Shown one piece after another: positions 40,025 to 55,738 of a stretch of DNA of 55,738 nucleotides. The number at the start of each line of letters is the position of its first letter. Position 1 is the first letter of the stretch. A program made the translations under genes and the position numbers. Origin of the DNA: Streptacidiphilus anmyonensis (GTDB lineage: Bacteria; Actinomycetota; Actinomycetes; Streptomycetales; Streptomycetaceae). The stretch lies in contig NZ_BBPQ01000024.1 in NCBI RefSeq assembly GCF_000787855.1, positions 52,002-107,739 of the forward strand. The letters are read 5' to 3'. Below the pieces are notes generated by a model, which saw only the letters and a list, made by a program, of their open reading frames with translations, did not search any database and had not been told where the DNA came from.

Positions 40025-40603
40025 ATGAGCGAATTACGGACCCAGGTGGTCGGACCGGACGACTGGCCCGCGGTCGGCGCGTTCTTCGAGCCGAAAGGGC
40101 TTGTCGAGAACTGCTGGTGCACGTACTTCCGCATGACGGCGAAGGACCGCTCCTCCTGCGGGCCAGGGTCCCGCAAGGACAGGCTCCGGGAGATGGTCGA
40201 GGCCGGCGAGCGGGTGGGCGTCCTCGGCTCGGTCGACGGCGCGCCCGTCGGCTGGATCGGAGTCGGCCCCAGGCTCGGCTTCCCGAGGCTGCGCGGATCG
40301 CGCGCCGCCAAGCTGATCGAGGGCGACGACCCCGAGCGCATCTGGTCCGTCGTGTGCCTGTACCTGACCCGCGACCACCGAGGCCAGGGCCACGCCCGCC
40401 GGCTCATCGACCGGGCGGCGGAGTGGGCCCGCGACGAGAAGGCGGACATCCTCGAGGCCTACCCCGAGGACGACCGCGATCCCGGGGCCGCCGTCGACCG
40501 CGACAGCTTCCACGGCCGGGTGAGCACCTTCGAAGCCTGCGGATTCACCGTCGTCGAGCCCCGGTTGCAGCGCCGCGCCCTGGTACGGAGGGATCTGCGA
40601 TGA
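40025..40603 (+). CDS. GNAT-family acetyltransferase
   Basis: 192 residues from an ATG at 40025. GNAT signature: VVCLYLTRDHRGQGHARRLI with the acetyl-CoA loop (RGQGHA), preceded by APVGWIGVGPRLGFPRL. ENCWCTYFRM near residue 30 is a Cys/Trp motif seen in one subgroup of these proteins. The fourth codon is TTA (40034-40036), so translation should depend on bldA. It may acetylate a pathway intermediate or the product as self-protection. It overlaps the next start (ATGA). Confidence 0.85.
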   Translation: MSELRTQVVGPDDWPAVGAFFEPKGLVENCWCTYFRMTAKDRSSCGPGSRKDRLREMVEAGERVGVLGSVDGAPVGWIGVGPRLGFPRLRGSRAAKLIEGDDPERIWSVVCLYLTRDHRGQGHARRLIDRAAEWARDEKADILEAYPEDDRDPGAAVDRDSFHGRVSTFEACGFTVVEPRLQRRALVRRDLR

Positions 40604-41163
40604 CGGCCCACCAGGTGCTCGCGCTCGAACCCTTCCTGAACAACCAGGCCGCGACCACGCCGGAGAACCTCGGCGACGGCCGGCTGAACGTCTGGCGCAA
40701 CTCGCTCCCGGCGCAGTCCGCGCCGCTGGAGATCGTCGTGGACGGCGTCCCGCTGCGCAGCGCCCGCCTCGACGGACGCGGCCCGGACAACGTCCTGTGC
40801 GCGGGACAGCGGATCGAGGTCCCCGGGCGGCGGTGGGACTGGCTCTACGTCATCGGATGCGGCGAGCGACGCGTCCGCGACACCGTCACCTGGCACTTCC
40901 GCGACGGCACCGTGGACCGCGACCACTTCGCGCTCTCGGACCTGTGGGAGGGACGGTCGGACTTCGGGGAGGAGCTCGCGCTGCGCACCGACGTCATCCA
41001 CTACCCGTTCCACGTGCAGGAACGCATCGGGATCACGCTGTGGTGCCAGCGCGTGCCGGTCACCTCGCGCAAGCCGCTGAGCGCCGTCTCGCTGCCCAGG
41101 AACCCGGCCGTCCACCTCTTCGCGATGACGCTGGTGGGCCATCAGACAGGGAGCGCGGCGTGA
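40600..41163 (+). CDS. Beta-sandwich protein of unknown function, partner of the BtrH-like gene
   Basis: 187 residues, all-beta. The pattern LEPFLNNQAATTPENLGDGR, PLEIVVDGVPLRSARL, GPDNVLCAGQRIEVPGRRW and LYVIGCGERRVRDTVTWHF resembles the Gly/Asn-rich carbohydrate-binding-like sandwich attached to alpha-L-fucosidases and similar enzymes. No catalytic residues are evident. It overlaps both neighbours (ATGA upstream, GTGA downstream), so it is made with the BtrH-like protein and may form a complex with it. In azinomycin biosynthesis the pair AziU2/AziU3 closes the aziridine; whether this pair corresponds to them is a hypothesis from position and pathway, not from a checked alignment. Confidence 0.75.
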   Translation: MTAHQVLALEPFLNNQAATTPENLGDGRLNVWRNSLPAQSAPLEIVVDGVPLRSARLDGRGPDNVLCAGQRIEVPGRRWDWLYVIGCGERRVRDTVTWHFRDGTVDRDHFALSDLWEGRSDFGEELALRTDVIHYPFHVQERIGITLWCQRVPVTSRKPLSAVSLPRNPAVHLFAMTLVGHQTGSAA

Positions 41164-42233
41164 ACGCAGGCAGTACGACGGTCGCGATATCCGGCGCGGC
41201 CCGGTGGAACGGCGTCACCGGCGCCTACCCCCAGTGGTACGAGGATCCGCTGAGCTGCCTGCAGACCACCTTGGGCAGCATCCTGATCGAGCACGGCCTG
41301 CGGCCCGTCGACGTGCTCGGGCTCGCCTGCGAGTTCACGTTCGCTCCGGACGACGCGATGTGCGAGGAGTTCTACCGTCCCGCGCAGAGCAGCCGCGGCG
41401 TGGCGGCCGACCTGTGCCCGTACCACGACGTCGAGTCCGCCTGGACGACGGGATCGGACGCGGGCGACCTGGTCGAGCTGATCGAGACGCACGGCCGCGT
41501 CATCGTGGCCGTCGACAACTACCACCTCCCCTTCCGCCCGGCCTTCCACGACGTGCACGCGGCGCACCTCGTCGTCGTGCCCGGCTGGCGCAGATCCGCC
41601 GACGGCTCCCTGGAGTTCTACGTCTCCGACGCACAACCGCCCGGATTCCAGGGATGGCTGCCCGCCGAGCACCTGATCAACAGCTGGCTGTCCGGCAACC
41701 CCTCCGACAGCCAGGACGTCTTCTTCTCCAGCCGCGAGATCGGCGGCCGGGTGCTGACGGTGACGGTGCGCCCGCAACCGGGCGGGCTCACCCGCGGCCA
41801 GGTCGACCAGGCGCTCGCGGGCAACCTGGAGCGCTGGAACGGCGGCACGGCCGGCCCCGAGGACCGCGTGTGGACCGGCCACGCCGGACTGCGCCGCTTC
41901 GTCGAGCGCCTGCGGGAGCGCTGCGCCGACCCCGCCGAACTGCGCAGCGCGTACACCTTCGGCTGGGCGATGCAGGCGCAGGCGTTCCTGCACGGCCGCC
42001 TCGCCCAGGAGTTCGCGCGCCGCTCCGACCGGCTCCGGCTGCTGGAGGTGGCCGCGTCGGCGGACCGGGTCGTGTCGGCCTGGTCGAACGTGCGACTGCT
42101 CAGTGCCCACGCGGCGCAGACCACCGGGATCACGGACCTCGTGCCGCGTCGCGGCGCCGAACTGGTCCACGCGTACGAGCAACTGGCGGCCGACTGGCGC
42201 CTTGCCCTGTCGACGGAATGGACGGACCGCTGA
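41160..42233 (+). CDS. BtrH-like (C39-peptidase-fold) protein, candidate acyl/ring-forming enzyme
   Basis: 357 residues from a GTG at 41160. The front 170 residues match the BtrH N-terminal (papain/C39-like) pattern: YEDPLSCLQTTLGSILIEHG with a candidate nucleophile Cys near residue 36, GRVIVAVDNYHLPFRPAFHD, and AAHLVVVPGW with a candidate His, followed by YVSDAQPPGFQGWLP. The rest is helical (DUF4872-like). BtrH moves an acyl group from a carrier protein to an amine in butirosin synthesis. Here the gene lies between the beta-sandwich gene and the DegT aminotransferase, so it may act on the carrier-bound DADH unit, either by acyl transfer or by sulfate elimination. Confidence is high for the fold and low for the reaction. 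Confidence 0.78.
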   Translation: MNAGSTTVAISGAARWNGVTGAYPQWYEDPLSCLQTTLGSILIEHGLRPVDVLGLACEFTFAPDDAMCEEFYRPAQSSRGVAADLCPYHDVESAWTTGSDAGDLVELIETHGRVIVAVDNYHLPFRPAFHDVHAAHLVVVPGWRRSADGSLEFYVSDAQPPGFQGWLPAEHLINSWLSGNPSDSQDVFFSSREIGGRVLTVTVRPQPGGLTRGQVDQALAGNLERWNGGTAGPEDRVWTGHAGLRRFVERLRERCADPAELRSAYTFGWAMQAQAFLHGRLAQEFARRSDRLRLLEVAASADRVVSAWSNVRLLSAHAAQTTGITDLVPRRGAELVHAYEQLAADWRLALSTEWTDR

Positions 42234-43501
42234 TGGTCACTGGGGGGACTGTGGGCGAGCTGGCGCTCACCGGGGGCGAGCCGGTGCTGGGGGAGCTCGC
42301 GCCGGTGAGCTGGCCGAGGACCACCGACGCCGACCGCGCGGCGGTGCTGGCCGTGCTCGACTCGAACGTCCTGGTCTCGGACCGGACGACCGAGGAGACG
42401 GCGGTCGAACGCCTGGAGCGGTCCTGGGCCGAGTACCTCGGCGTCAGGCGCTGCGTCGGAGTGAGCAACGGCACCACCGCCATCGAACTCGCCCTGCTCG
42501 CGCACGGGGTGGGCCCCGGCGACGAAGTCGTCGTCCCTGCCCTCACCTTCGTGGCGACGGCCATGGCCGTGGTGCACGTCGGGGCGACCCCGGTCTACGC
42601 CGACGTCCACCCGACCACGTTCACCATGTCCGCGGACAGCCTGGCCGCAGAGATCACCGAGCGCACCAAGGCCGTCGTCCCGGTCCACCTGCACGGGCTC
42701 AGCGCCGACCTGGCCGCGATCGACGAGGTCGCCGGCCGCCACGGCCTGGTGGTGATCGAGGACGCCGCGCAGGCCCAGGGCGCGCGCTACCGGGGTGTCC
42801 TGTCCGGAGCGTCCGGCCACACGGCCACGTTCAGCCTCCAGATGACCAAGAACCTCCCCACCTGCGGGGAAGGGGGCCTGGTCGTCACCGACGACGAGCG
42901 CGTCGCCGACCGGATCGTCCAGATGCGCCAGTTCGGGGAGACGATCCGCGCCGACCGCCCGCGCCGCTACGTGAGCCACCGCCTCGGCTTCAACGCCAAA
43001 CTCAACAACGTCCAGGCGGCCTACACCGCAAGCCAGTTGGAGCGCTTCGACGCCTACCACGCGGCCCGCCGCGCCAACGTCGCCGCCTTCCTGTCGCGGC
43101 TGGACCACCTCGACGGCCTGACCTGCCCGTCGGAGCCGGACGGATACGAGCACGCCTGGCACATTCTGCGCTTCGTCGTCGACTTCGACCGGATCCTGCC
43201 GGGCGTGGACACCGCGGCGGCGCGGAACCTGCTGATGCGGGCGCTGCGCGCCGAGGGCCTGCCGGCGACCAGGTACCAGATGATGCCGCTCCCCGAGCAG
43301 CCGGCGCTGCGCCCCCTCGCCCGCCAGACGCCCGCGTCCTGGCCGGTCACCCAGGACGTCGTCGACCGCAGCTTCACCCTCCAGCAACGCCACCTCCCCC
43401 CGGACGCCGGACCGCTGCTGCAGGGCTTCGCCGATGTCGTCGAGAAGGTCTGGTCGCAGCTGAAGGTCCTCCAGCAGCTGGCGGAAGGCGCAGACCGGTG
43501 A
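42233..43501 (+). CDS. DegT/DnrJ/EryC1/StrS-family PLP aminotransferase
   Basis: 422 residues from the ATG at 42233 (an in-frame ATG at 42218 is possible). Family marks: VSNGTTAIELALLAHGVGPG, DEVVVPALTFVATAMAVVHV, ADVHPTTFTM, VVIEDAAQAQGARY (Asp that pairs with the PLP nitrogen), the Lys in LQMTKNLPTCGEGGLVV, and HRLGFNAKLNNVQAAYTASQ. DegT enzymes usually aminate keto-sugars. Next to a split transketolase and an amino-group carrier it should aminate the 6-keto group of the carrier-bound seven-carbon intermediate on the way to DADH. It overlaps the BtrH-like gene by one base and the transketolase by four. Confidence 0.92.
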   Translation: MVTGGTVGELALTGGEPVLGELAPVSWPRTTDADRAAVLAVLDSNVLVSDRTTEETAVERLERSWAEYLGVRRCVGVSNGTTAIELALLAHGVGPGDEVVVPALTFVATAMAVVHVGATPVYADVHPTTFTMSADSLAAEITERTKAVVPVHLHGLSADLAAIDEVAGRHGLVVIEDAAQAQGARYRGVLSGASGHTATFSLQMTKNLPTCGEGGLVVTDDERVADRIVQMRQFGETIRADRPRRYVSHRLGFNAKLNNVQAAYTASQLERFDAYHAARRANVAAFLSRLDHLDGLTCPSEPDGYEHAWHILRFVVDFDRILPGVDTAAARNLLMRALRAEGLPATRYQMMPLPEQPALRPLARQTPASWPVTQDVVDRSFTLQQRHLPPDAGPLLQGFADVVEKVWSQLKVLQQLAEGADR

Positions 43502-44403
43502 CCGAGCCCGAACGCCGACCCGAACCCACGGGGCCCGAACCCGCGCGGCCCGAACTCGCGCGGCTGGAAGCCCGCGCACGCGCCGTCCGCGAGCACATCG
43601 TCGACATGTGCAGCGGCCCCGAGGGCGGTCACCTCGGCGGCTCGATGTCCGCCGTCGAGATCCTGGTCGCGCTGTTCTTCCACACGATGAACATCGACGC
43701 CGGCGATCCCGAGTGGAAGCAGCGGGACGTCTTCGTGCTGAGCAAGGGCCACGCGGCGATGGCCCTGTACGCCACGCTCGCCGAGCGGGGGTTCATCGCC
43801 CGCGAGGAGATCGCCACCTTCTGCCGGCCCGGCAGCCGACTGGCCACCCACGGCAACGTCGCCGTCCCCGGCGTCGAGTTCGCCACCGGTTCCCTCGGCC
43901 ACGGGCTGGCCCTGGCCAACGGCACGGCCTGGGCGCAGCGGCAGGCCGGCGACTCGCCCGCGCGCACCTTCGTGCTCCTCGGCGACGGCGAACTGCAGGA
44001 AGGCACGGTCTGGGAGGCCGCCCAGGTGAGCCGCGCCCTCGCCGCCGACAACCTCGTGGCCGTCGTCGACGTCAACAACTTCCAGCAGACCGGTGCGGTG
44101 CGCGAGGTCAGCGACGGCGCGCCCGTCGCCGACCGCTGGGCCGGATTCGGGTGGCACACCGTCGAGGTCGACGGGCACGACCTGGCGGCGCTGTGCTCCG
44201 CCTTCGACGAGGCGGCCCGCGTGAACGGCCCGACGGCCGTGGTCTGCCGCACCGTCAAAGCCAAGGGCGTGGGGGCTCTCGCAGGCAGGGCCTCCTCCCA
44301 CTTCGTCCTGCTCGACACCGAGCGCAAGCGGGCGCGCGTCAGGGCCAGCATGGCGCCCGCGGCTCCCCGCGCGACCGCGAAGGGGGAGCCCGAGCATGCT
44401 TGA
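43498..44403 (+). CDS. Transketolase, N-terminal (TPP-binding) subunit
   Basis: 301 residues from a GTG at 43498 after a Pro/Glu-rich leader. The TPP motif is GDGELQEGTVWEAA to VVDVNNFQQTG. GGHLGGSMSAVEILVALFFH, VLSKGHAAMALYATLAERG and FATGSLGHGLALANG are typical transketolase blocks. With the next gene it forms a two-piece transketolase, as in actinomycete secondary metabolism. Expected reaction: transfer of a two-carbon hydroxyacetyl group from a ketose (or hydroxypyruvate) to the carrier-bound glutamate semialdehyde, giving a seven-carbon keto-diol. It overlaps the C-terminal subunit by eight bases. Confidence 0.93.
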   Translation: MTEPERRPEPTGPEPARPELARLEARARAVREHIVDMCSGPEGGHLGGSMSAVEILVALFFHTMNIDAGDPEWKQRDVFVLSKGHAAMALYATLAERGFIAREEIATFCRPGSRLATHGNVAVPGVEFATGSLGHGLALANGTAWAQRQAGDSPARTFVLLGDGELQEGTVWEAAQVSRALAADNLVAVVDVNNFQQTGAVREVSDGAPVADRWAGFGWHTVEVDGHDLAALCSAFDEAARVNGPTAVVCRTVKAKGVGALAGRASSHFVLLDTERKRARVRASMAPAAPRATAKGEPEHA

Positions 44404-45400
44404 CACCAAGCCCGAGACTGCCAAGCCCGAGACTGCCAAGCCCGAGACCGCCCAGCCCGAGACCGCCAGGACCGGGCCCGCGACCGGGACGGAGCGCGTC
44501 AGCACCCGGACCGCCTTCGCCGAGGCCCTGCCCGAACTCGCGGTACGCCACAACGTGCTGGTCGTCGACACCGACACCGGCAGCATCAAGCCGACGCCCG
44601 AGATGGACTACCTCAACGTCGGCATCGCCGAGAACGCGGCCGTCGGCCTCGCCGCCGGCGCCGAGCACTGCGGACGGCGCGCCCTGGTCTGCACGTTCGC
44701 GGCCTTCTCGGTCAGCCGGGCGTTCGAGTTCATCAAGCTCGACATCGCCTACCCGCGCCGCCGCGTGTGCATCGTCGGCACGCACGGGGGCGCCAGCGGC
44801 GGCTGGCTGGGCCCGACGCACCACGCCACCGAGGACCTCGCGCTGATGAACGCGCTGCCCAACATGCGGGTCGTCGTCCCGGCCGACGCGGTCCAGGCCG
44901 TGTCGCTGCTGGAGCAGTGCCTGACCCACGACGGACCGACCTACCTGCGCCTGGGACGCAAGGGCTCGCCGGTGTTCGCGGGGCTGCCCGCGCCGCGGCT
45001 CGGCGTCCCGCAGCAGGTCCGTCCCGGCCGCGACATCGCCCTGGTCGCCACCGGCCCGGAGATCCTGGCCACCGCGCTGGAGGTGGCGCAGGGCCTCGCC
45101 GAGGCGGGGTACAGCGCGCAGGTGGTCAACGTCCACACCGTCGACCCGGACTCCGCCGGCGCCGTGGCCCGGGCCCTCGCCCCGGAGTGCCGGTGGCTGG
45201 TCACGCTGGAGGAGGCGTGGACGTCCGGCGGCATGGGCGCGCAGGTCGCGGCCGCCGCCGGAGCCCGCGGCATCCCCTGGCTGCCTATCGGCGTCACCGG
45301 CTTCCTGCCGCCCGACAGCCACGCGTCGCTGCTGGAGGCCGGCGGACTGACCACCGGGTCCGTGCTCCGCCGGGTCCTTGACTTCGTCGCCCACCCGTAG
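44396..45400 (+). CDS. Transketolase, C-terminal subunit
   Basis: 334 residues. The pyrimidine-binding domain has MDYLNVGIAENAAVGLAAGA with the Glu that activates TPP, HGGASGGWLGPTHHATEDLA and MRVVVPADAVQAVSLLEQCL. The C-terminal domain reads DIALVATGPEILATALEVAQ and VTLEEAWTSGGMGAQVA. The first 25 residues are a four-fold KPETA-type repeat not found in the core fold, probably a flexible arm. Works with the preceding subunit. Confidence 0.93.
   Translation: MLDTKPETAKPETAKPETAQPETARTGPATGTERVSTRTAFAEALPELAVRHNVLVVDTDTGSIKPTPEMDYLNVGIAENAAVGLAAGAEHCGRRALVCTFAAFSVSRAFEFIKLDIAYPRRRVCIVGTHGGASGGWLGPTHHATEDLALMNALPNMRVVVPADAVQAVSLLEQCLTHDGPTYLRLGRKGSPVFAGLPAPRLGVPQQVRPGRDIALVATGPEILATALEVAQGLAEAGYSAQVVNVHTVDPDSAGAVARALAPECRWLVTLEEAWTSGGMGAQVAAAAGARGIPWLPIGVTGFLPPDSHASLLEAGGLTTGSVLRRVLDFVAHP
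44408..44467 (+). repeat. 15-bp tandem repeat, four copies, in the transketolase C-subunit
   Basis: Units of AAGCCCGAGACTGCC, with the third and fourth slightly changed, encode KPETA, KPETA, KPETA and QPETA. The tract lies just inside the N-terminus and keeps the frame, so copy number may vary among strains without damage. Confidence 0.85.
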
Positions 45401-45444
45401 TGCCAAGCAACCGACCGAGGACCGACCGAGAAGGGAAGGACGAG

Positions 45445-45612
45445 ATGGAAACAGAGTGCGTCAGCTGCGCCGGCACGCTGCTGATACCGGCGGACAGCTA
45501 CCAGGGGGAGATCGTCAGCTGCCCCGGCTGCGCGACGGAGCTGGAGATCCACTCGACGCACCCGCTGGAGCTGGCCATCGCGCCCGAGCCCGAAGAGGAC
45601 TGGGGTGAATGA
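45445..45612 (+). CDS. lysW: LysW-type amino-group carrier protein (AmCP)
   Basis: 55 residues from an ATG at 45445 (AAGGGAAGGACGAG upstream). CVSC and CPGC pairs form the zinc ribbon (METECVSCAGTLLIPADSY, SCPGCATELEIHS), and the C-terminus is EPEEDWGE, the exact LysW-type tail whose last Glu side chain is ligated to the amino group of the substrate. In lysine or arginine synthesis by this route the carrier holds aminoadipate or glutamate. Placed with transketolase and DegT genes, it belongs to the secondary-metabolic version. Its last bases overlap the ligase gene. Confidence 0.95.
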   Translation: METECVSCAGTLLIPADSYQGEIVSCPGCATELEIHSTHPLELAIAPEPEEDWGE

Positions 45613-46489
45613 CCCCCTGGGGACGTCGACGCCCGTGGGCATCCTGTTGTCGACCGTCCGATACGAGGAGCGGCGGCTCCTGGCCGAGCTGGAGCGCCGC
45701 GACGTCCCGGTCGTCCGCCTCGACCCGCGCACCATGTCCTTCGCACCCAAGGACGCCGAGGCGCTCCACGGGATGGCGGTGCTGAACCGGGAGATCTCCA
45801 GTCAGCGGGCGGCGCTGGCCGCGGAGTCGCTCGAGGCGTTCGGCGCCCGGCCGGTCAACGACGCCGCGGCGACCCGGGTCTGCGGCAACAAGTGGTCCAC
45901 CTACCTGCGGCTTCGGCAGTGCGGCGTGCCGACGCCGACGACCCTGCTGGCGCCGTCCCCGCAGGCCGGCCTGGAGGCGGTCGCCTCCGTCGGCTACCCG
46001 GCCGTGATCAAGCCCCTCAGTTCGTCGTGGGGCAACCGGGTCAGCCTGATCACCGACCAGTACGCGGCCGACGCCGTCCTGGAGCACTGCGCCGCCCTGC
46101 CCTCGGCGGTCTCCAGAACGGTGATCGTCCAGGAGGCGGTCCGGCCGGGCTCACCCGACATCCGCGGCATCGTCGTCGACGGCGTCTGCCTGGGCGCCAT
46201 CACCCGCTCCAGCGGCGACTGGCGCAACAACGTGGCCAGGGGGGCGACGGTGCGTCAGCACGCGCCCAGCGAGCAGATCGACCGGCTGTGCGTCCAGGCG
46301 GCGGCCGCCGTGGGCGCGCGGATCGCCGGGGTGGACCTGGTCGAGTACGCGGACGGGTCCTTCACGGTGCTCGAAGTGAACTCCCGCGTCGAATTCCAGG
46401 GATTCGAGCGTGCGACGGGCGTCGACGTCGCCGCACGGATCGTCGAGGCCCTGACGGCCGCGATGAGCGAGGTGAAGGAACCGGTATGA
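45605..46489 (+). CDS. lysX: LysX-type ligase: loads glutamate onto the amino-group carrier
   Basis: 294 residues from a GTG at 45605, overlapping the carrier gene by eight bases. ATP-grasp protein of the RimK/LysX group: LLSTVRYEERRLLAELERRD, NKWSTYLRLRQCGVPTPTTL, YPAVIKPLSSSWGNRVSLI, SGDWRNNVARGATV and the C-terminal metal site LEVNSRVEFQGFERATGVDV. It joins the carrier's C-terminal Glu side chain to the amino group of an acidic amino acid using ATP. The expected substrate is glutamate, from the pathway context; sequence alone does not separate Glu from aminoadipate here with certainty. Confidence 0.93.
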   Translation: MNDPLGTSTPVGILLSTVRYEERRLLAELERRDVPVVRLDPRTMSFAPKDAEALHGMAVLNREISSQRAALAAESLEAFGARPVNDAAATRVCGNKWSTYLRLRQCGVPTPTTLLAPSPQAGLEAVASVGYPAVIKPLSSSWGNRVSLITDQYAADAVLEHCAALPSAVSRTVIVQEAVRPGSPDIRGIVVDGVCLGAITRSSGDWRNNVARGATVRQHAPSEQIDRLCVQAAAAVGARIAGVDLVEYADGSFTVLEVNSRVEFQGFERATGVDVAARIVEALTAAMSEVKEPV

Positions 46490-47496
46490 AGCGCATCGCA
46501 GTGGTGGGCGGACGGGGCTTCGTGGGAGGTGAGCTGCTGCGGCTGCTCGTCCACCACCCCGGGGTCGAGGTCGCGGCCGTGACCTCCGACACCCACGCCG
46601 GCCGCGCCGTCGAGAACGCCCACCCACCGCTGCGCGGCAGCGGCCTGCGTTACCGCAGGCGCGAGGACCTGGAGCCGGTCGACCTGGTCTTCCTCGCCGG
46701 GGTGCACGGATCCACGGCCCGGATCCTCGACGACATGGCGGCGCTCGCGCCGAAGATCGTCGACCTGACCGCCGACTTCCGGATCGAGGACGCCTCGGTC
46801 ATGGAGCGCTACTACGGTTGGAGCCGTCAAGGCGAGCACGCCAAGGCGTTCGTCCGCGGCCTGCCCGAGCTGCACCGCAAACAGATCGTCGACGCCGACC
46901 GGGTCGCCGTCCCCGGCTGCATGGCCACCAGCGCGATCCTGAGCCTCGCGCCGCTGGCGGCACGCGGGCTGCTCACGGAGGTGCAGGTCGACGCGCGGAC
47001 CGGCAGCAGCGGCGGCGGCGCCTCCAGCGGCGACGCGAACTCCCACGCCCTGCGCAGCGGCGTGATGCGGGTGTTCGCGCCGTTCGAGCACCGGCACGAG
47101 GCCGAGGTGGCCGAGGCGCTGCGGGTGGAGGTGTCGATGACGGTCACCGCGACACCGCAGGTGCGCGGCGTGCAGACGCTGACCAAGGTCGAGGTCGGGG
47201 AGGTGGGCGAGCGGGAGCTGCTCGCCATGTACCGCGAGGACTACGGCGCGGAGCCGTTCGTCCGCCTGGTCAACAGCCCCCGCGGGACCTACCGCTACCC
47301 GGACCCGAAGGTGCTGCTCGGCTCGAACTTCTGCGACGTCGGCGTCGTCGCCGACCACCGCGGCAAGGCGCTGGTGATGGGGAGCCTCGACAACCTGATG
47401 AAGGGGGCCGCGGGCGGCGCGGTGCAGTGCATGAACCTCATGCTCGGCCTGCCGGAGACGTGCGGGCTGACCTTCCCCGGACTGCACCCGGTATGA
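46486..47496 (+). CDS. lysY: LysY/ArgC-type reductase of the carrier-bound acyl phosphate
   Basis: 336 residues from an ATG at 46486. N-terminal NADPH fold (RIAVVGGRGFVGGELLRLLV), VVFLAGVHGSTARILDDM-type segment (LVFLAGVHGSTARILD), VDLTADFRIED, the catalytic Cys in VPGCMATSAILSLAPLA, SGGGASSGDANSHALRSGVM and the GSLDNLMKGAAGGAVQCMN signature near the end. It should reduce the phosphate made by the LysZ-type kinase to the semialdehyde, still bound to the carrier. Overlaps the ligase and kinase genes by four bases each. Confidence 0.94.
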   Translation: MKRIAVVGGRGFVGGELLRLLVHHPGVEVAAVTSDTHAGRAVENAHPPLRGSGLRYRRREDLEPVDLVFLAGVHGSTARILDDMAALAPKIVDLTADFRIEDASVMERYYGWSRQGEHAKAFVRGLPELHRKQIVDADRVAVPGCMATSAILSLAPLAARGLLTEVQVDARTGSSGGGASSGDANSHALRSGVMRVFAPFEHRHEAEVAEALRVEVSMTVTATPQVRGVQTLTKVEVGEVGERELLAMYREDYGAEPFVRLVNSPRGTYRYPDPKVLLGSNFCDVGVVADHRGKALVMGSLDNLMKGAAGGAVQCMNLMLGLPETCGLTFPGLHPV

Positions 47497-48323: not shown

Positions 48324-49408
48324 CGATTGACCATGTCAGCACCGAAGCACCCGAGTTGACCGACACCCACGCCGTGGCGTTACTCGCCGAGGTCGTGGCG
48401 ACCGAGTCGGTCTCCGGCGGCGAGCAGAAACTGGCGGAGCGGCTGCGCGACGTGGCGGCGCGACACGGCGCCGAGAGCTACCTGGACGACGTGGGGAACG
48501 TGCACGCCCTGGTCGGGCAGGGGCCGCGTACCGTCATGCTGCTCAGCCACCTCGACACGGTGCCGGGCGAGGTCCTCTTCGAGCACAGCGAGGACCTCAT
48601 CCGCGGCCGGGGGGCCGTCGACGCCAAGGGCCCGCTGACGGCCATGCTCGTCGCGGCGCTGACAAGCCGTCATCTCGGCCTCCGCATCCACTGGGTGGGG
48701 GTCGTCGAGGAGGAGACCCTGTGGTCCAGGGGCGGCGAGCACGTCCGTGCGACCGTGCCCGAACCCGACGCCGTGATCGTGGGGGAGCCGAGCGGGGCGT
48801 CGTCGGTGACCATCGGCTACAAGGGGCTCGTCGAACTCCAGGTCCGCTGCGAGGTCCCGCGCACCCACACCGCCACGCCCGGCCCGAAGGCCAGCGAGAC
48901 CCTGGTCAAGGCGCTCGGCCGGCTGTTCGACCGGTACGGGGCGCGCGGGAACGAGAACTTCGGGGACGTCGGCATGATCGTCAGAGACGGCCGCTTCGAG
49001 CCGTTCTCCAGCTCGTGCTCGCTGGTGTTCCGCACCCCGCCCGGGACGACGGCCGAGGGCCTGCGCAAGGACGTCTCGACGGTCCTGGGCGAGCCGGTGG
49101 AGGTGTCGACGGTCTACGAGGTCCCCGCCGTCGTCGTCCCGCGCGGCTCCGCGTGCGTCCGCGCGCTGTCGCGCGCCATCGTCCTCGAGGGCTTCCAGGC
49201 CGGCCACAAGCTCAAGACCGGCACCAGCGACATGAACACGTTGAGCAGGACCTGGACGGTGCCGATGGCCACCTACGGGCCGGGCGACAGCCACCAGGAC
49301 CACACCGACGACGAACACATCCTGATCCAGGAGTACCTCCTCGGCATCCGCGTCCTGCGGACCGCCCTGGGCGAACTCGACAAGACCCTCCCGGAGGCAG
49401 CGTCATGA
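48320..49408 (+). CDS. lysK: LysK-type M20 hydrolase releasing the product from the carrier
   Basis: 362 residues from a GTG at 48320. M20 metallopeptidase: metal ligands in LLSHLDTVPG and GRGAVDAKGPLTAML, base-type Glu in VVEEETLWSRGGE, VGEPSGASSVTIGYKG, and a final metal-binding His near DSHQDHTDDEHI. LysK cuts the isopeptide bond and frees the finished amino acid from LysW. Here that product should be DADH or a relative. A TTA codon at 48380-48382 (codon 21) places this step too under possible bldA control. Overlaps the sulfotransferase start by four bases. Confidence 0.92.
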   Translation: MTIDHVSTEAPELTDTHAVALLAEVVATESVSGGEQKLAERLRDVAARHGAESYLDDVGNVHALVGQGPRTVMLLSHLDTVPGEVLFEHSEDLIRGRGAVDAKGPLTAMLVAALTSRHLGLRIHWVGVVEEETLWSRGGEHVRATVPEPDAVIVGEPSGASSVTIGYKGLVELQVRCEVPRTHTATPGPKASETLVKALGRLFDRYGARGNENFGDVGMIVRDGRFEPFSSSCSLVFRTPPGTTAEGLRKDVSTVLGEPVEVSTVYEVPAVVVPRGSACVRALSRAIVLEGFQAGHKLKTGTSDMNTLSRTWTVPMATYGPGDSHQDHTDDEHILIQEYLLGIRVLRTALGELDKTLPEAAS

Positions 49409-50133
49409 CGGAGCAGCCGAGTCTCTTGGCGCTGTGGTGCGTCCCGCGCTCGCGGTCCACCGCGTTCGAGCGCGCCATGTACGAGCGCGGCGACTTCCTG
49501 GTAGTCCACGAGCCGTTCTCGCGGGTCTGCGACTTCGGCGAGACGGAGCTGGCCGGGCGCACCTGCACCAGCCAGGAGGAGGTGATGGCGGCGCTGGTCG
49601 AGACGGCGGCGAAGCAGCCGGTCTTCTTCAAGGACACCACCGACTTCCCGCTCGACCGGCTCGGCGCGAACCCCGCCTTCCTGGGCCGCTGCCGCCACGC
49701 CGCGATGGTCCGCAACCCCCGCGACACCGTGCGCTCGCACCTGGTCATGCAGGCCGACGCCACCTCCTCCGCCATGGGGTTCGGGCACCTGTGGGACATC
49801 GTCGAGGCGGTGACCTCCGCCGGTCTGCCGATGCACCTGGTCGACGGCGACGAGCTGGCCGGCGACCCGCAGGCGGAGATGCGACGCTACTGCGCCGCCA
49901 TGGGCGTCGACTTCCTCGCCGAGGCGCTCGACTTCAAGCGGGAGCCCCCGGCCAGCTGGAAGGCCACCGGGCGCTGGCACGAGGGGGCCAGCGAGTCGAA
50001 GGCCCTGGGCGCCTCCCCGGCCGGGAGGAAGCCGTTCCCGGAAAGCCTGGAGCAGACCGCGCTGGCCTTCGAGAAGGACCAACTGCCGTACTACGAGAGG
50101 ATCACGGCAGCACTGGGCGCTCCCCGGAGCTGA
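49405..50133 (+). CDS. Sulfotransferase (PAPS-dependent)
   Basis: 242 residues from an ATG at 49405. The 5'-phosphosulfate loop is WCVPRSRSTAFERAM at residue 11. VFFKDTTDFPLDRL and the 3'-phosphate motif MVRNPRDTVRSHLV follow near residues 75-115. The late ASWKATGRWHEGASE resembles the substrate loop of the group. In azinomycin-type pathways a hydroxyl is sulfated so that sulfate can leave when the aziridine closes. With the APS kinase gene downstream, this fits. Confidence 0.88.
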   Translation: MTEQPSLLALWCVPRSRSTAFERAMYERGDFLVVHEPFSRVCDFGETELAGRTCTSQEEVMAALVETAAKQPVFFKDTTDFPLDRLGANPAFLGRCRHAAMVRNPRDTVRSHLVMQADATSSAMGFGHLWDIVEAVTSAGLPMHLVDGDELAGDPQAEMRRYCAAMGVDFLAEALDFKREPPASWKATGRWHEGASESKALGASPAGRKPFPESLEQTALAFEKDQLPYYERITAALGAPRS

Positions 50134-50220: not shown

Positions 50221-51477
50221 ATGTCGCTGGGCCGTAGCTTCACCAAGCTGTGGTGGTCGCAGGGGTTGTCGAACCTGGCCGACGGCCTGGTGCTGGCGGC
50301 CGTACCCCTCCTCGCCGTGGCGATGACCCGTGACCCCCTGCTGGTCTCGGGGATGACGGTGGCCCAGTTCCTGCCCTGGCTGCTCTTCGCCCTGCCCGCC
50401 GGAGCCCTCGCCGACCACGTCGACCGACGCCTGATCATGGTGTGGGGCAACGCGCTGCGTGCCGTCGGCTTCGGCCTGCTCGCCGTGATGCTCGCCGTCC
50501 ACCTGCGCAGCATCGTCGTCCTCTACCTCGCGGTCTTCCTCGCCGGAACCGCCGAGACGCTGGTCAACAACGCGGCGCTGACGGTGCCGCCGCGCCTGGT
50601 CAAGCGCGGCGACCTGGAACGGGCCAACGGACGCCTGGTCGCCACCCAGTCGACCATCAACAACTTCATCGGACCCCCGGTGGGCGCCGCCCTGTTCGCC
50701 CTGTCGGCGGTCATGGTGGTCACCTCCACCGCGGGCCTGTTCGCCCTCGCCGCCCTCGCCGTGATCACCCTGCCCCGGATGCTGCCCACCGCGAGCGACT
50801 CCAGCGGCGGCAACCACACGCCCGGAGCGGTCGTCCGCAGCATCCGCGAAGGCTGGTCCTACTTCTGGAACCACCGGCTGCTGCGGCGCGTGGCGTTCAT
50901 CTCCGGCTCGATCAACCTGTTCTCCTCCGCCACCGAGGGCCTGCTCGTGCTGCTGGCGACCGGCCCGTTGAAGGTCTCCACGTCCTGGTACGGCGTCTTC
51001 ATCGCGCTGCCGGCCGTGGGCGCCGTGATCGGCTCGCTGATCGCGGCGCGGGTCGTCCCGGCCATCGGCGGCGGACCGGTCACCTGGCTCGCCGCGCTCG
51101 TGCCCGCCGCCAGCTACGTCGTCCTCGGGCTCAGCGGGAGCGTCGTCCTGTCCGAGATCGCCATGTTCCTCGCCGCCATCGCCACCGCCTTGAACCAGAT
51201 CGTGGTGACCACCCTGCGGCAGGCGTCCGTCCCCGACGAACTGCTCGGCCGCGTCACCGCCGGATACCGCCTGATCGTGCTCGGCGCCGTGCCCGTCGGC
51301 GCGCTGATCGGCGGAGGGCTCGGGCGGTGGCTGGGACCGGCGCACGCCTTCGTCGTGTGCGGCGTCGGACTGGCGCTCGCCGCGCTCGTGTTCGCCTCAC
51401 GGGTGACCACGCGGGCGCTGCGCGAGGCCGAGCGCGACGTCCAGCCCGTGACCGCCGAAGAGATCTCCTACACCTAG
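50221..51477 (+). CDS. MFS exporter (EntS/enterobactin-exporter-like group)
   Basis: 418 residues from an ATG at 50221 (GAAGGAG site). Twelve predicted membrane segments. It opens LWWSQGLSNLADGLVLAAVP, has the A-motif-like GALADHVDRRLIMVWGNALR, and VFLAGTAETLVNNAALTVPP. This subgroup exports siderophores and peptides. Located inside the cluster, it is the probable product exporter and part of self-resistance. Confidence 0.9.
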   Translation: MSLGRSFTKLWWSQGLSNLADGLVLAAVPLLAVAMTRDPLLVSGMTVAQFLPWLLFALPAGALADHVDRRLIMVWGNALRAVGFGLLAVMLAVHLRSIVVLYLAVFLAGTAETLVNNAALTVPPRLVKRGDLERANGRLVATQSTINNFIGPPVGAALFALSAVMVVTSTAGLFALAALAVITLPRMLPTASDSSGGNHTPGAVVRSIREGWSYFWNHRLLRRVAFISGSINLFSSATEGLLVLLATGPLKVSTSWYGVFIALPAVGAVIGSLIAARVVPAIGGGPVTWLAALVPAASYVVLGLSGSVVLSEIAMFLAAIATALNQIVVTTLRQASVPDELLGRVTAGYRLIVLGAVPVGALIGGGLGRWLGPAHAFVVCGVGLALAALVFASRVTTRALREAERDVQPVTAEEISYT

Positions 51478-51504: not shown

Positions 51505-51876
51505 ATGAGCCTGATGTTGTCGCACACGACCGTCGACGCGCGCGACCCCTACGCGCAGGCGCGATGGTGGTGCGAGATGGCCGAGTTCACCCCCAAGGAA
51601 GGGGTGCGGCCGGGGTCCGACGAGTGCTACGTCGCCACCGGGGACGGCTACACCGTGCTGTTCATCCTCGTGCCCGACGCCAAGACGGTGAAGAACCGTG
51701 TGCACTTCTGCATGCGGCCCAAGGACCGCTCGCAGGACGCGGAGGTCGAACGCGCCCTCGCGCTGGGCGCGGGCGTCGTCACCGACTTCCGGTCGTCGGG
51801 CGGCTGGGTGGTCATGGCCGACCCCGAGGGCAACGAGTTCTGCATCCTGGCCGACCGGCACACGACCGGTGAGTAG
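51505..51876 (+). CDS. VOC-fold (glyoxalase/bleomycin-resistance-like) small protein
   Basis: 123 residues from an ATG at 51505. Two beta-alpha-beta-beta-beta units: SLMLSHTTVDARDPYAQARW and VHFCMRPKDRSQDAEVERAL, then FRSSGGWVVMADPEGNEFCI, the typical VOC end. Proteins of this type bind drugs such as bleomycin or mitomycin, and others are metal enzymes. Between the exporter and the NRPS genes it may be a drug-binding self-resistance protein or a small enzyme of the pathway. Confidence 0.82.
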   Translation: MSLMLSHTTVDARDPYAQARWWCEMAEFTPKEGVRPGSDECYVATGDGYTVLFILVPDAKTVKNRVHFCMRPKDRSQDAEVERALALGAGVVTDFRSSGGWVVMADPEGNEFCILADRHTTGE

Positions 51877-51924
51877 CGGGCGCTCGCGCCGAGAGAACCC
51901 AAGCAGACGAGGTAAGGAGACCCC

Positions 51925-52200
51925 GTGACCGAGAAGCGAGACGTCGTGTGCAAGGCCGCCTACGAGCAGCCGGCCGACGAGCTGGAGGAGCACGTCGCCG
52001 CCGTCATCGCCGAGGTGCTGGGCCTCGACCGGGTGGGCCGCCGCGACAGCTTCTACGACTTCGGCGGCACCTCGCTCGCGGCCATCCGCATCTGCGCCCG
52101 CATCGAGCGCCGCCTGGGACTGCGCGTCGACCCCGCGTGGCTGCTCGAATACGACGAGCTGGCCGACTTCGCCGAGCAGATCCGGCTCGGTGCCCTGTGA
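51925..52200 (+). CDS. Free-standing peptidyl carrier protein
   Basis: 91 residues from a GTG at 51925 with AAGGAGA upstream. The phosphopantetheine site is YDFGGTSLAAIRI with Ser near residue 50. It overlaps the free-standing A-domain gene by four bases, so the pair probably works together: the A domain loads this carrier in trans, and the free C domain uses it. Confidence 0.92.
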   Translation: MTEKRDVVCKAAYEQPADELEEHVAAVIAEVLGLDRVGRRDSFYDFGGTSLAAIRICARIERRLGLRVDPAWLLEYDELADFAEQIRLGAL

Positions 52201-53741
52201 CCGGGACACCGGGCACGCCGAACGTGCCGCCCCTGCGGGCGGTGCACGCCGCCGTCGTCGAGTGCGCCGACCGGGCTCCGCACGCCCTCGCCCTGGTCCA
52301 GGGGCAGGAGCGGGTCGACTACCGCACCCTCACCGCGGCGGCGAGGATCCTGGCGGGCCGGCTCGCCGCGTGGGGCGTGCGGCCCGGGGACGTCGTGCCC
52401 CTGCTGGTGCCGCGCGGCGCCCAGCTGATCGCCCTCCAGCTCGGCGTGCTGATGAGCGGCGCCGCGTACGCCACCCTCGACCCGCGCTGGCCGGCCGGCC
52501 GGATCGCGTCGATCCTCGCCCAGCTCGACGACCCGGTCGTCGTCGGGCGGCCCGGCGACGAGCCCCTCGGCGTCACCCGGACCCTCGCCCCGGCGCCCCT
52601 GTCCGCGCTCGCGAAGGAGGCGGAGGCGAAGCAGGCGGCTCTCCTCGCGCCGGTGGCCACCGCCTTGGACGACCCGGCCATGGTGTTCTTCACCTCCGGC
52701 AGCACGGGCGTCCCCAAGGGTGTGCTGATACCCCACCGCGCCGTCACCCGGATGTTCGGCCCCGGCGGGCTGGACGGCTTCGGACCGGGCCACGTCACCC
52801 CACAGGTCGCGCCGGCGGCCTGGGACATGTACGCGTTCGAGCTGTGGGGGCAGCTGACCACCGGCGGCGCGTGCGTCGTGGTCGAGGAGAGCCACCTGAT
52901 GCCCAGTCGGCTGCGCGCCCTGGTCGCCGACGAGGCCGTCGACACGGTCTGGCTGACCACCTCCCTGTTCAACCTGGTCGTCGACGAGGACCTGGACGCG
53001 TTCGACGGACTGGGCGCGCTCTACGTCGGAGGGGAGAAGCAGTCGCCCCGGCACGTCGCCAGGTTCCTGGAGCGCTTCCCCGACCTGCCGATCTGGAACG
53101 GCTTCGGCCCCGCCGAGAACTGCATGCTGACGACCGTGCACCGGATGACGCCGGCCGACAGCGCCGCGCCCGCCGGCATCCCGGTCGGCCTGCCCGTACC
53201 CGGCACGACGGTGGTCCTGCTGCGCGAGGACGGCACGCCCGCTCCGCGCGGCGAACGCGGCGAGATCGTCGCCGTCGGCCCCGGCGTCGCACTCGGCTAC
53301 CTGAACAACGAGACGCAGACCCGCGAGCGGTTCCCCACCCTGGAGATCGCCGGCGACAAGCAGCGCGTGCTGCGCACCGGCGACGTCGGCATGGTCGACG
53401 ACGACGGGGTCCTGCACTACTACGGCCGCCGCGACCGCATGGTCAAGCTCAGCGGAAACCGGATCGAGCTCGGCGACGTCGAGGCCGCCGCCTCCGCCAT
53501 CCCGGAGATCCGCGCCTGCGCCGCCGTCGCACGGACCGACGCGGGCGGCACGGTCGAGCACATCGCCCTGGTCTACACCCTGGTCGACGGCGCCGAACTC
53601 GCCCCGCGCGAGGTCCGCAAGAGGCTCACCGCCAAGCTGCCCGCCTACGCCGTGCCCGGCAGGTTCGAGCAGTTGGACGAGCTGCCGCGGCGCGACAACG
53701 GCAAGGTCGACCTCCAAGCCCTGGAGAGGCGCCCCCGGTGA
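52197..53741 (+). CDS. Free-standing adenylation domain
   Basis: 514 residues from a GTG at 52197. A3 is FFTSGSTGVPKGVLIPH; A4 region AAWDMYAFELWGQLTTGG; A5 FGPAENCMLTTVH; A7 RTGDVGMVDDDG; A8 GRRDRMVKLSGNRIELGDVE; A10 RRDNGKVDL with the catalytic Lys. The A4 reading gives Asp in the position that grips the amino group, so an alpha-amino acid substrate is expected. It overlaps the carrier and condensation genes by four bases on each side. Confidence 0.93.
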   Translation: MTGTPGTPNVPPLRAVHAAVVECADRAPHALALVQGQERVDYRTLTAAARILAGRLAAWGVRPGDVVPLLVPRGAQLIALQLGVLMSGAAYATLDPRWPAGRIASILAQLDDPVVVGRPGDEPLGVTRTLAPAPLSALAKEAEAKQAALLAPVATALDDPAMVFFTSGSTGVPKGVLIPHRAVTRMFGPGGLDGFGPGHVTPQVAPAAWDMYAFELWGQLTTGGACVVVEESHLMPSRLRALVADEAVDTVWLTTSLFNLVVDEDLDAFDGLGALYVGGEKQSPRHVARFLERFPDLPIWNGFGPAENCMLTTVHRMTPADSAAPAGIPVGLPVPGTTVVLLREDGTPAPRGERGEIVAVGPGVALGYLNNETQTRERFPTLEIAGDKQRVLRTGDVGMVDDDGVLHYYGRRDRMVKLSGNRIELGDVEAAASAIPEIRACAAVARTDAGGTVEHIALVYTLVDGAELAPREVRKRLTAKLPAYAVPGRFEQLDELPRRDNGKVDLQALERRPR

Positions 53742-55042
53742 CGCGCACCTACCCGCAGACCTTCGAACAGGAGGCGCTGTGGATCGCCGACCAGTTCGTC
53801 GGCGAGCCCTCGCCGTTCCTGGAGACCTGGGCCCAGCACCTCACCGGAGCCCTCGACGTCCCGGCACTCGAACGCGCCGTCGCCGCGCTGGTCAAGCGCC
53901 ACGCCGTGCTCCGTACCCGGTTCACCCTCGACGAGACCGGGCCGGTGCAGGTGGTCGACCCGGTCGGCGCCCTGCCCCTGGAACGCCTGGCCTGGCCCGG
54001 CGGCGACCTGCACGACACGCTGCGGCGAGCCGGGCAGCGACCGCTCGACCTGACCGTGTCACCGACCCGGCTGACCCTGTACGACTACGCCCCGGACGAG
54101 TACGTGCTGCTCCTGCAGATCCACCACGTCGCCGTCGACGACGCCTCGCTGGTCCTGCTCGACCAGGAGCTGTCCGCCCTGTACGCCGAGGAGACCGGCG
54201 GCGAACCGGCCAAGCTCCCGACCCCGGGCACGACGCTGGGCGAGCACGCCCTGCGGGCGCGGGCCGCCGGAATCGCCCCGGCCGACCTCGCGTTCTGGGC
54301 CGGGTTCCTCGACGGCGCGCCCGTGCTCACCCAGCTGCCGCCCCGCCCGCGCCCCCTCGCCGCGCGCCGGGGCACCGAGTGCGGCTGCGTGCGCGCCACC
54401 GTCCCCGCCGGGCTCGGCGACGCCGTCCGCGCGGCGGCCCGCGCGCTGCGCACCACCCCGCACGTGCTGATGAGCACCTGCATGGCCGTCACCGTCGCGG
54501 CGGTCAACGGTGAGGACGTCGTCGTCGGCAGCCCCGTCTCCCGCCGCGGCGAGCCGGACCTCGACGGCGTCCTCGGCTGCCTGACCGACCTGCTGCCGGT
54601 GCGCTACCGGGTCCCCGCCGACGCCACCTTCGCCGAGGTGTGCGCCGCCGCGAAACGCACCTCGCTGGAGGTGCTCCGGCACCGCGACGTGCCCTACGCC
54701 CGGCTCGGCGGCGGCGTCACCCGCACCCGCGGGGTGCTGTCCGGCGGCCAGGCGAGCCGCGTCTGCCTGGTCCTGGACCAGTCCCCGAGCCGCCTGGAGC
54801 TCGCCGGACTTCGGTCCGAGCGGGTGCACGTCGGGGGAGCCGCGGCGAAGTTCGACTGGCTCCAGTACGCCGTCGCCGACGGCAGCGGCTGGGACGTCCG
54901 CGCCGACTACGCCACGGACCACTTCACCGAGCCCGAGGCGGAGCTGACGCTGCGCCAGTGGCTCACCGCCCTGTCGGCCGCCGCCGACGACACCGACGTG
55001 CCGGTGCGCGACCTGTTCGACCGACTGGCCGCCCTCGCATGA
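53738..55042 (+). CDS. Free-standing condensation domain
   Basis: 434 residues from a GTG at 53738. C-domain core motifs: FEQEALWIADQF (C1-like), RHAVLRTRF (C2), and LQIHHVAVDDASLVLLDQEL (C3), in which the last Gly of HHxxxDG is Asp. VVVGSPVSRRGEPDLDGVLG (C5-like) and LRHRDVPYARL follow. It should join the amino acid on the free carrier to a partner bound elsewhere, perhaps the PCP of the C-A-PCP protein. The altered core could also mean an unusual acceptor. Confidence 0.9.
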   Translation: MTRTYPQTFEQEALWIADQFVGEPSPFLETWAQHLTGALDVPALERAVAALVKRHAVLRTRFTLDETGPVQVVDPVGALPLERLAWPGGDLHDTLRRAGQRPLDLTVSPTRLTLYDYAPDEYVLLLQIHHVAVDDASLVLLDQELSALYAEETGGEPAKLPTPGTTLGEHALRARAAGIAPADLAFWAGFLDGAPVLTQLPPRPRPLAARRGTECGCVRATVPAGLGDAVRAAARALRTTPHVLMSTCMAVTVAAVNGEDVVVGSPVSRRGEPDLDGVLGCLTDLLPVRYRVPADATFAEVCAAAKRTSLEVLRHRDVPYARLGGGVTRTRGVLSGGQASRVCLVLDQSPSRLELAGLRSERVHVGGAAAKFDWLQYAVADGSGWDVRADYATDHFTEPEAELTLRQWLTALSAAADDTDVPVRDLFDRLAALA

Positions 55043-55115
55043 GACCCACCGCGAGGCGTGCCGCGGGCCTTTGCCCCCACCGTGACCGGACCTCCAGAAA
55101 GCGAGCGACACGCCG

Positions 55116-55691
55116 GTGAATACGGAGCTGCCGACCAGCCAGACGACCCGCGACTGCGAGTGCGGCGCGACGGTATGGCTGACGGGCCTGCCCAGCGCGG
55201 GAAAGACGACGATCGCCCACGCCGTGGCCGACCGCGTGCGCGGCCGAGGCCGCAAGGTGGAGGTGCTCGACGGGGACGAGTTCCGCCGGACCCTCTCCTC
55301 GGGGCTCGGCTTCAGCCGCGAGGACCGGTACACGAACGTGCAGCGCATCGGGCTCGTCGCGGAGGTGCTGGCGCGCAACGGCGTGCTGGTCCTGGTCCCG
55401 GCCATCGCGCCCTACGCCGACAGCCGGCACGCCGTGAGGGAGCGTCATGCGGCCACCCGCACGCCCTACCTGGAGGTCCACGTCGCCACACCCGCGAGCA
55501 CCTGCTCCGAGCGCGACGTGAAGGGCCTGTACGCCAAGCAGGCGGCGGGCGAACTGACCGGGCTGACCGGCGTCGACGACCCCTACGAGGCGCCGCAGAC
55601 GCCCGACCTGCGCATCCCCGCGCACGAGCAGTCGGTGGACGAGTCCGCGACGACGCTGCTGGGCCTGCTGGCGGAGAGGCGCCTGATATGA
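55116..55691 (+). CDS. cysC: Adenylylsulfate (APS) kinase
   Basis: 191 residues from a GTG at 55116. P-loop WLTGLPSAGKTTIAHAV, then VLDGDEFRRTLSSGLGFSRE and EDRYTNVQRIGLVAEVLARN, and DVKGLYAKQAAGELTGLTGV: all standard CysC blocks. It makes PAPS from APS and ATP. A private copy inside the cluster should feed the sulfotransferase at 49405. It overlaps the next gene by four bases. Confidence 0.95.
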   Translation: MNTELPTSQTTRDCECGATVWLTGLPSAGKTTIAHAVADRVRGRGRKVEVLDGDEFRRTLSSGLGFSREDRYTNVQRIGLVAEVLARNGVLVLVPAIAPYADSRHAVRERHAATRTPYLEVHVATPASTCSERDVKGLYAKQAAGELTGLTGVDDPYEAPQTPDLRIPAHEQSVDESATTLLGLLAERRLI

Positions 55692-55738
55692 GCCCCCGCC
55701 ACGTCGACACCGTCGCGCACGACCTCGCCGCCCTCGGC
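55688..55738 (+). CDS. Start of a further cluster gene, cut by the right edge
   Basis: An ATG at 55688 overlaps the cysC stop (ATGA) and opens a frame reading MSPRHVDTVAHDLAALG to the end of the window. Too short to identify. It shows that the operon continues. Confidence 0.6.
   Translation, partial: MSPRHVDTVAHDLAALG

Follow-up and report, generated by a model that had tools for sequence, protein, structure and literature searches.

A predicted azinomycin/ficellomycin-type aziridine peptide cluster with a thioesterase-dehydrogenase fusion at a contig end of Streptacidiphilus anmyonensis

The window analysed here, a stretch of 55,738 nucleotides from the 9.39 Mb genome of Streptacidiphilus anmyonensis (bases 52002-107739 of contig NZ_BBPQ01000024.1, hereafter C130), very probably holds a self-contained biosynthetic cluster for an aziridine peptide of the azinomycin/ficellomycin type, running from position 32675 of the window to just past the end of the contig. 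At its centre, between a GNAT and a DegT gene, lie two overlapping plus-strand genes for homologues of the two subunits of aziridine synthase. The AziU2 homologue (40600..41163; 187 residues) was matched with phmmer to Protein Data Bank (PDB) chains 7wuw_A (E 2.1e-39) and 8gs1_A (E 1.8e-39), and the AziU3 homologue (41160..42233; 357 residues) to 7wuw_C (E 3.7e-46), as well as being placed by a family alignment. A preliminary description of this DNA had proposed a related aziridine-bearing peptide without naming either gene. The two homologues now give that proposal direct support, since the case for an aziridine can now be built on the enzyme that closes the ring.

AziU3/U2 "is functionally an aziridine synthase" that acts by sulfate displacement, as stated in a review (PMC12559475), and the AlphaFold 3 paper describes PDB entry 7WUX as (5S,6S)-O7-sulfo DADH, a diaminodihydroxyheptanoic acid (DADH) derivative, bound to AziU3/U2 (PMC11168924). 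Excerpts of a review recount the transketolase, aminotransferase, sulfation and aziridine closure steps, together with an amino-group carrier for vazabitide (PMC9570651). Because the window combines the AziU2/AziU3 homologues with genes for all of these steps, it appears to encode a route from glutamate to the aziridine.

Genes were called with curated Pfam cut-offs, solved relatives were sought in the PDB, and NCBIfam served as a second profile set. Every gene named in the preliminary description (LysW with an EDWGE tail, LysX, LysY, LysZ, LysK, DegT, a split transketolase, a sulfotransferase, adenosine phosphosulfate (APS) kinase, a protein with condensation (C), adenylation (A) and peptidyl carrier protein (PCP) domains, and free PCP, A and C proteins) was recovered by Pfam in a single plus-strand run. 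Among the 25 window genes checked, the plus-strand frames of the cluster had no internal stops and mostly overlapped by a few bases. Directly after AziU3 come the DegT aminotransferase (42230..43501; PF01041, 309.9 bits), the transketolase N-terminal half with its thiamine diphosphate (ThDP) domain (43498..44403; PF00456) and the C-terminal half (44396..45400; PF02779/PF02780). The LysW-type amino-group carrier that follows (45400..45612, with a likelier ATG start at 45445; PF21344) has EEDWGE as its tail and contains two CxxC pairs. Next are a LysX-type ATP-grasp ligase (45605..46489; Pfam, PDB and NCBIfam), a LysY-type phosphate reductase (46486..47496; Pfam and tree), a LysZ-type kinase (47493..48323; Pfam, and the NCBIfam [LysW]-aminoadipate kinase model at 238.5 bits against a cut-off of 223) and a LysK-type M20 hydrolase (48314..49408, start approximate; Pfam and NCBIfam). 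The block closes with a sulfotransferase carrying VPRSRS and RNPRD stretches (49405..50133; PF19798, 27.7 bits, cut-off 23.2), for which the PDB search returned no match at E 0.01. LysY scored above the NCBIfam argC cut-off, and LysW and the best LysK model fell below the strict NCBIfam cut-offs. For LysX, the PDB search listed 11 sequences, none labelled as belonging to a secondary pathway.

By the preliminary description, its proposal would be refuted if the LysX/Z/Y/K proteins grouped with primary lysine or arginine enzymes and the transketolase/DegT pair with sugar-pathway proteins. Neither outcome was observed in the comparisons made, the first on LysY and the second on DegT. A maximum-likelihood tree of 26 LysY/ArgC proteins placed all 11 LysY rows of AziU3-bearing clusters, the window's included, on one side of a branch (91/84), apart from 11 rows that we took as ArgC because they grouped with the genome's own copy adjoining an ArgB-like gene on contig C146. 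The remaining four rows came from other loci; for two of them, the program issued a warning of long branches meeting between them and the ArgC rows. The closest solved protein to the window's DegT was 8gyh (E 3e-114), far ahead of the next PDB match, a perosamine synthetase (E 4e-60). In genome G076, the DegT that adjoins AziU3 shows 100% identity to 8gyh across 427 residues. The LysW/X/Y/Z/K carrier chemistry is common to the LysW-dependent lysine and arginine biosynthesis of Thermus and Sulfolobus; in contrast to that route, the window joins it to transketolase, DegT, sulfotransferase and aziridine synthase genes in a secondary-metabolite operon. A second amino-group-carrier locus occurs in the same genome on contig C114 (L160:12167-19887), with an HMGL-like synthase, a weak LysW match, LysX, LysY, LysZ, a Glu/Leu-dehydrogenase and an AMP ligase. 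It recalls the iso-maleimycin cluster BGC23a as presented in an excerpt of PMC12022981.

In the pathway that we propose, LysX would load glutamate on the LysW carrier, LysZ and LysY would convert the glutamate side chain to an aldehyde, the split transketolase would add two carbons, and DegT would aminate the carrier-bound C7 ketone to DADH, which LysK would then release. The sulfotransferase would sulfate the C7 hydroxyl with 3'-phosphoadenosine 5'-phosphosulfate (PAPS) supplied by the APS kinase and by CysD/CysN, a pair seen in relatives, and AziU3/U2 would close the aziridine by displacing the sulfate. The C-A-PCP protein would load the aziridine unit, and a fused pair of dehydrogenases would oxidise the PCP-bound unit at C2-C3, so that attack of the aziridine nitrogen on C3 closes the bicycle. 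The unit would next be joined to a hydrophobic amino acid picked by the free A/PCP/C trio, which has a Val-like code; a fused thioesterase (TE) would release the product, and a cytochrome P450 and the GNAT protein may tailor it. The sequences themselves show the gene identities, the AziU2/U3 homology, the synteny, the subtype and the conserved A code. The carrier route and the sulfate displacement are taken over from published work on relatives, and we infer how the later steps are ordered, that the dehydrogenase pair closes the bicycle and which kind of amino acid is the partner.

The limits of the cluster are indicated by four relatives at high identity, namely G073, Streptomyces sp. NRRL F-6131 (G202), Kitasatospora purpeofusca NRRL B-1817 (G180) and Amycolatopsis circi DSM 45561. 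Proteins from LysX to the sulfotransferase are 78-91% identical to the window's in the first three (LysW 70-73%) and 68-81% identical in A. circi (LysW 74%). Synteny with the first three sets the left end at the C-A-PCP gene (32675) and the right end after CysN, and the relatives thus show what would be one plus-strand run from C-A-PCP to a CysD-CysN pair just past the contig end. The start at 40600 given in the preliminary description was too late, since synteny brings in four further plus-strand genes: a nonribosomal peptide synthetase (NRPS) of C-A-PCP architecture (32675..35950; Pfam), a fusion of TE, acyl-CoA dehydrogenase and a second, degenerate dehydrogenase (~35956..38676, start approximate; Pfam and PDB), the cytochrome P450 (38741..39967; Pfam, heme motif FGLGVHRCIG) and the GNAT acetyltransferase, with a possible role in tailoring or self-protection (39986..40603; Pfam, 71-83% identical in the four relatives). 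Left of C-A-PCP, selected G073 frames had no match in the other relatives at E 1e-5, the DNA compared covering 7.5-9.8 kb in G073, F-6131 and K. purpeofusca and about 1.7 kb in A. circi.

Since C130 terminates at base 107739, the right edge of the window is an assembly edge. The APS kinase gene (55116..55691, plus strand; Pfam) is followed by a frame (55688..55738, plus strand) in which the contig ends after 17 codons. By its place and its likeness to the start of the K. purpeofusca gene this frame is read as CysD, so that the cluster is cut in this genome. In G073 a PAPS-reductase-domain gene and an EF-Tu-type GTPase gene (Pfam), which we read as CysD and CysN, stand in full after the APS kinase. 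Two contigs were considered as the continuation and set aside: C90 has one strong CysD match (78%), but it sits in a group of three genes, two with a PAPS-reductase domain and one for a GTPase, that we read as assimilatory CysH-CysD-CysN, and C42 has a second CysD match that is weak (E 6e-4).

To the left, LuxE-like, LuxC-like and weakly matched AMP-binding genes and a GNAT gene occupy 25679-32174 on the minus strand, a separate small locus divergent from the aziridine cluster. The preliminary description had counted this LuxC/LuxE/PaaK arm in the pathway, and it could in principle supply an acyl or aldehyde part of the product. It lies only 0.5 kb from the cluster, and most of the 80 AziU3 loci surveyed below span 10 kb beside AziU3, too short to show it. 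However, LuxC, LuxE and the second AMP-binding protein found no match in G073, F-6131 or K. purpeofusca, the three relatives in which the DNA covered reaches far enough (7.5-9.8 kb) upstream of C-A-PCP. These genes are therefore probably neighbours, and their participation seems very unlikely.

The wider distribution of the aziridine synthase was surveyed with one pattern scan of genome contigs, which gave 119 stretches and 88 relatives, 80 of which were kept. The scan is biased toward motif-keeping proteins because two peptide motifs were required; 68 of the 80 loci span about 10 kb on each side, and the score thresholds were of our own choosing. AziU2 was found in 79 of the 80 loci, in every case immediately upstream of AziU3 and in the same orientation (79/79). 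DegT occurred in 65 loci, the transketolase halves in 59 and 57, LysX in 65, LysY in 56, LysZ in 55, LysK in 58, LysW in 55 and the sulfotransferase in 54, and 36 of the 80 loci held DegT, both transketolase halves, LysX/Y/Z/K and the sulfotransferase together. A FastTree phylogeny of 84 AziU3 plus AziU2 rows (one without AziU2) united the window, G073 and loci L045, L046 and L047 in one clade with local support of 1.0. By these sequences the window cluster is a member of a five-genome subtype, which is marked by a TE-dehydrogenase-dehydrogenase fusion and by the free A-domain code DMFWYGGML. Streptomyces sp. NRRL F-6131 has two AziU3 loci, L045 of the window's subtype and L065 of another.

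The clade stands on a branch of length 1.03 and is only weakly joined to the azinomycin clade (0.587). With 1.03 changes per column on this branch and 38-40% identity to the characterised pair, the homologues might have drifted so that a sulfated amino acid undergoes another cyclisation or an elimination, giving for example an azetidine, a pyrrolidine or an alkene. Against this, 22 columns of AziU3 (84 rows) and 18 of AziU2 (83 rows), counted only where filled in more than 90% of rows, are invariant across rows that include the window and azinomycin, and we consider such drift distinctly improbable.

The pair is shared with the azinomycin B cluster (PDB 7wuw/7wux), and excerpts of the review describe for azinomycin a route to the aziridine that likewise runs through a transketolase, an aminotransferase and sulfation (PMC9570651). 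However, azinomycin's own AziU2/AziU3 are 78-97% identical to those of seven loci (L089, L090, L092, L094, L096, L099 and L110), an identity not approached by the window, where AziU2 is 40% identical to azinomycin's over 176 residues and AziU3 38%. Four of these seven azinomycin-type loci have the code DFWSVGMVH, which we take to be Thr-like, and none has a TE-dehydrogenase fusion. Unlike azinomycin, no polyketide synthase was found among the cluster genes of the window scanned with Pfam. This is in line with the opinion in the preliminary description that the product is probably not azinomycin. The seven loci occur in Streptomyces, Nocardia, Dactylosporangium, Sphaerimonospora and Microtetraspora.

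Genes for AlkZ-like DNA glycosylases are reported for azinomycin- and ficellomycin/vazabitide-like clusters in an excerpt of PMC9040887. No AlkZ-like gene (PF06224) was found on C130 or near the cluster in G073, G202 or G180, and AlkZ-type self-resistance was rejected for the window cluster, with no such gene nearby. Candidates for self-protection are instead the GNAT protein, a major facilitator superfamily (MFS) exporter (50221..51477, plus strand; Pfam) and a glyoxalase/vicinal oxygen chelate (VOC)-fold protein (51505..51876, plus strand; Pfam), which was matched only in G073 among the four relatives and might act by drug binding.

The second pathway with solved proteins is that of 8gyh and 8hk0, which we take to be Fic25 and Fic32-33 of ficellomycin, an identity not stated in the PDB tables. 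G076, the source type of 8gyh, has AziU2/U3, DegT, both transketolase halves, LysW/X/Y/Z/K, the sulfotransferase and the APS kinase in common with the window, and also a C-A-PCP with the code DVFDFGGVT and a pair of 8hk0-like dehydrogenases. The two differ in gene order and in architecture: TE is fused to C-A-PCP in G076, where the dehydrogenases are separate proteins, whereas in the window TE is fused to the dehydrogenases. G076 differs further in having an L-amino-acid-ligase-type ATP-grasp protein in the region and, at a distance of 28 kb from AziU3, an AlkZ-like gene. With DegT at 49% (409 residues) and the dehydrogenase at 43% identity to 8gyh and 8hk0, and AziU2/U3 at 38-40% to azinomycin's, the window is not nearly identical to either type.

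The first dehydrogenase of the fusion matches 8hk0_A (E 1e-63, 43% identity over 325 residues) and the degenerate second one 8hk0_C (E 1e-11), so that the pair corresponds to both chains of a heteromeric enzyme. An IERT motif is kept in the first dehydrogenase, which we assume to correspond to the catalytic glutamate site of isovaleryl-CoA dehydrogenase. A dehydrogenase match was found in 48 of the 80 AziU3 loci, so the combination of TE and acyl-CoA dehydrogenase, which the preliminary description had counted against azinomycin, is not in itself a departure from the family. The fusion it reported is indeed present: a single frame encodes TE together with both dehydrogenase domains in 4 of the 48 loci (L045, L046, L047 and L081), plus the window and G073, and in the other 44 the dehydrogenase's frame contains no TE (four of those frames being cut by an edge). 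Locus L081, from Micromonospora wenchangensis, pairs window-type C-A-PCP (71%), TE-dehydrogenase fusion (68%) and P450 (68%) with a core of the G076 kind (AziU3 41%), a chimera that points to exchange of a ring-finishing cassette.

AziU3/U2 may also act while the second ring is not formed, leaving a simple aziridine or an opened form. The enzymes that form the bicycle are not firmly assigned in the relatives examined, and the P450 and GNAT proteins could divert the unit. This outcome is unlikely, though not negligibly so, given that a dehydrogenase together with a DVFDFGG module recurs in 38 of the 80 AziU3 loci, over several subtypes, and in the 8gyh/8hk0 type.

A further feature of the family lies in the A domains. 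That of the C-A-PCP protein has DVFDFGGVT at the nine variable specificity positions, and DVFDFGG was read in 45 of the 63 loci with an A-domain match of at least 200 residues, even though the DVFDFGG domains outside L045-L047 and L081 are only 38-50% identical to the window's. As a control, we searched for the window's A domain across the family (249 genomes, 18 of them AziU3-bearing and 231 others). A match of E 1.4e-64 or better was found in 17 of the 18, the exception being G140 (best E 1.8e-47), versus 2 of the 231 (G208 and G114), in which the code is DVFESGGIG. From each genome 8 candidates were scored, and the code was then read in the 30 best loci, a procedure that weaker copies may escape; DVFDFGGV[T/A] appeared in 17/17 loci from AziU3-bearing genomes and 0/13 from AziU3-negative ones. 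The string DVFDFGG was not found in the open-access PubMed Central (PMC) literature. The DVFDFGGVT domain likely loads the DADH-derived unit. We give about an even chance to a broader reading, in which DVFDFGGV[T/A] would mark the DADH-derived azabicycle unit throughout the family, C-A-PCP and the paired acyl-CoA dehydrogenase would form a ring-finishing cassette that can be transferred from one aziridine core to another, and ring closure and release would be fused in a single TE-dehydrogenase-dehydrogenase protein in the window's subtype.

The partner amino acid would be chosen by three free-standing plus-strand proteins: a PCP with a GGTS motif (51925..52200; PF00550, 54.5 bits; 67-92% identical in the four relatives), an A domain (52197..53741; Pfam and code reading) and a C domain with the motif HHVAVD (53738..55042; Pfam and motif). 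The free A code, DMFWYGGML, was read by comparison with Val-coded domains. The window shares it unchanged with G073, F-6131 and K. purpeofusca, while in A. circi the domain is cut by the locus edge. The code resembles Val codes at D, W, G and G, yet is not a Val code. Elsewhere in the survey DFWSVGMVH also occurs in L109, DFWNVGMVH, presumably Thr-like as well, in L104, L105 and L107, and DALW[L/V]GGTF, which we take to be the canonical Val code, in L114, L116, L120, L123 and L124; with codes so assigned, the other A codes in AziU3 loci fit known products.

These codes bear on whether the product could be vazabitide A or a very close analogue, that is, a compound already described. Excerpts of the review attribute to vazabitide A a LysW carrier route to DADH and an azabicycle, as in the window, a likeness by description only (PMC9570651). 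The core is the same and the free A code is Val-like, the window and vzb proteins too being compared by description only. However, what may be vazabitide-type loci have the presumed canonical Val code and not DMFWYGGML, and in the five loci with that code AziU3 is 30-33% identical to the window's. Furthermore, LysY lies 25-31 kb from AziU3 in G241 (the genome of L116) and in G149 (a near relative by LysY), whereas the window genes are close together; this wide spacing fits the wide numbering of the vzb genes. We regard vazabitide A itself as improbable.

Several observations weigh against a self-contained aziridine peptide cluster as we propose it. The AziU3 homologue is 38% identical to azinomycin's (302 residues) and stands on a long branch, and for the free A code no substrate assignment is known. 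In NCBIfam, DegT matches chiefly sugar aminotransferase models, and every match falls far short of its cut-off. DegT is absent from the DNA covered in 15 of the 80 loci, including the seven azinomycin-type ones, so that AziU3 is not always close to DADH genes. Finally, no continuation of CysD/CysN was found elsewhere in the window genome, where the cluster is cut.

The proposed aziridine peptide cluster is probably a new orphan variant of known chemistry, with a compound that would be undescribed. Among the matches listed, no title on the window's subtype was found in the open-access PMC literature. The hydrazine-enzyme paper on K. purpeofusca concerns negamycin, and the NRRL F-6131 cloning paper lists NRPS clusters and, in the passages considered, names none like the window's. 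Farther left in the window, on the minus strand, are a phage tail sheath protein (3242-4942), which points to a contractile tail or an injection-type particle, a collagen-repeat match (5707-6801) that is possibly a false frame, and a long tetratricopeptide-repeat (TPR) protein (19293-22130).

Enzymatic aziridines are rare and chemically useful. AziU3-bearing loci are widespread in actinomycetes, and for only two kinds could a link be drawn here to a solved protein from a pathway already studied. The present analysis adds a sequence-anchored aziridine pathway with defined ends and close relatives in named strains, in which closure of the second ring could be tested with one fused protein. If DVFDFGGV[T/A] truly marks the unit, azabicycle peptides would be findable from NRPS sequence alone.

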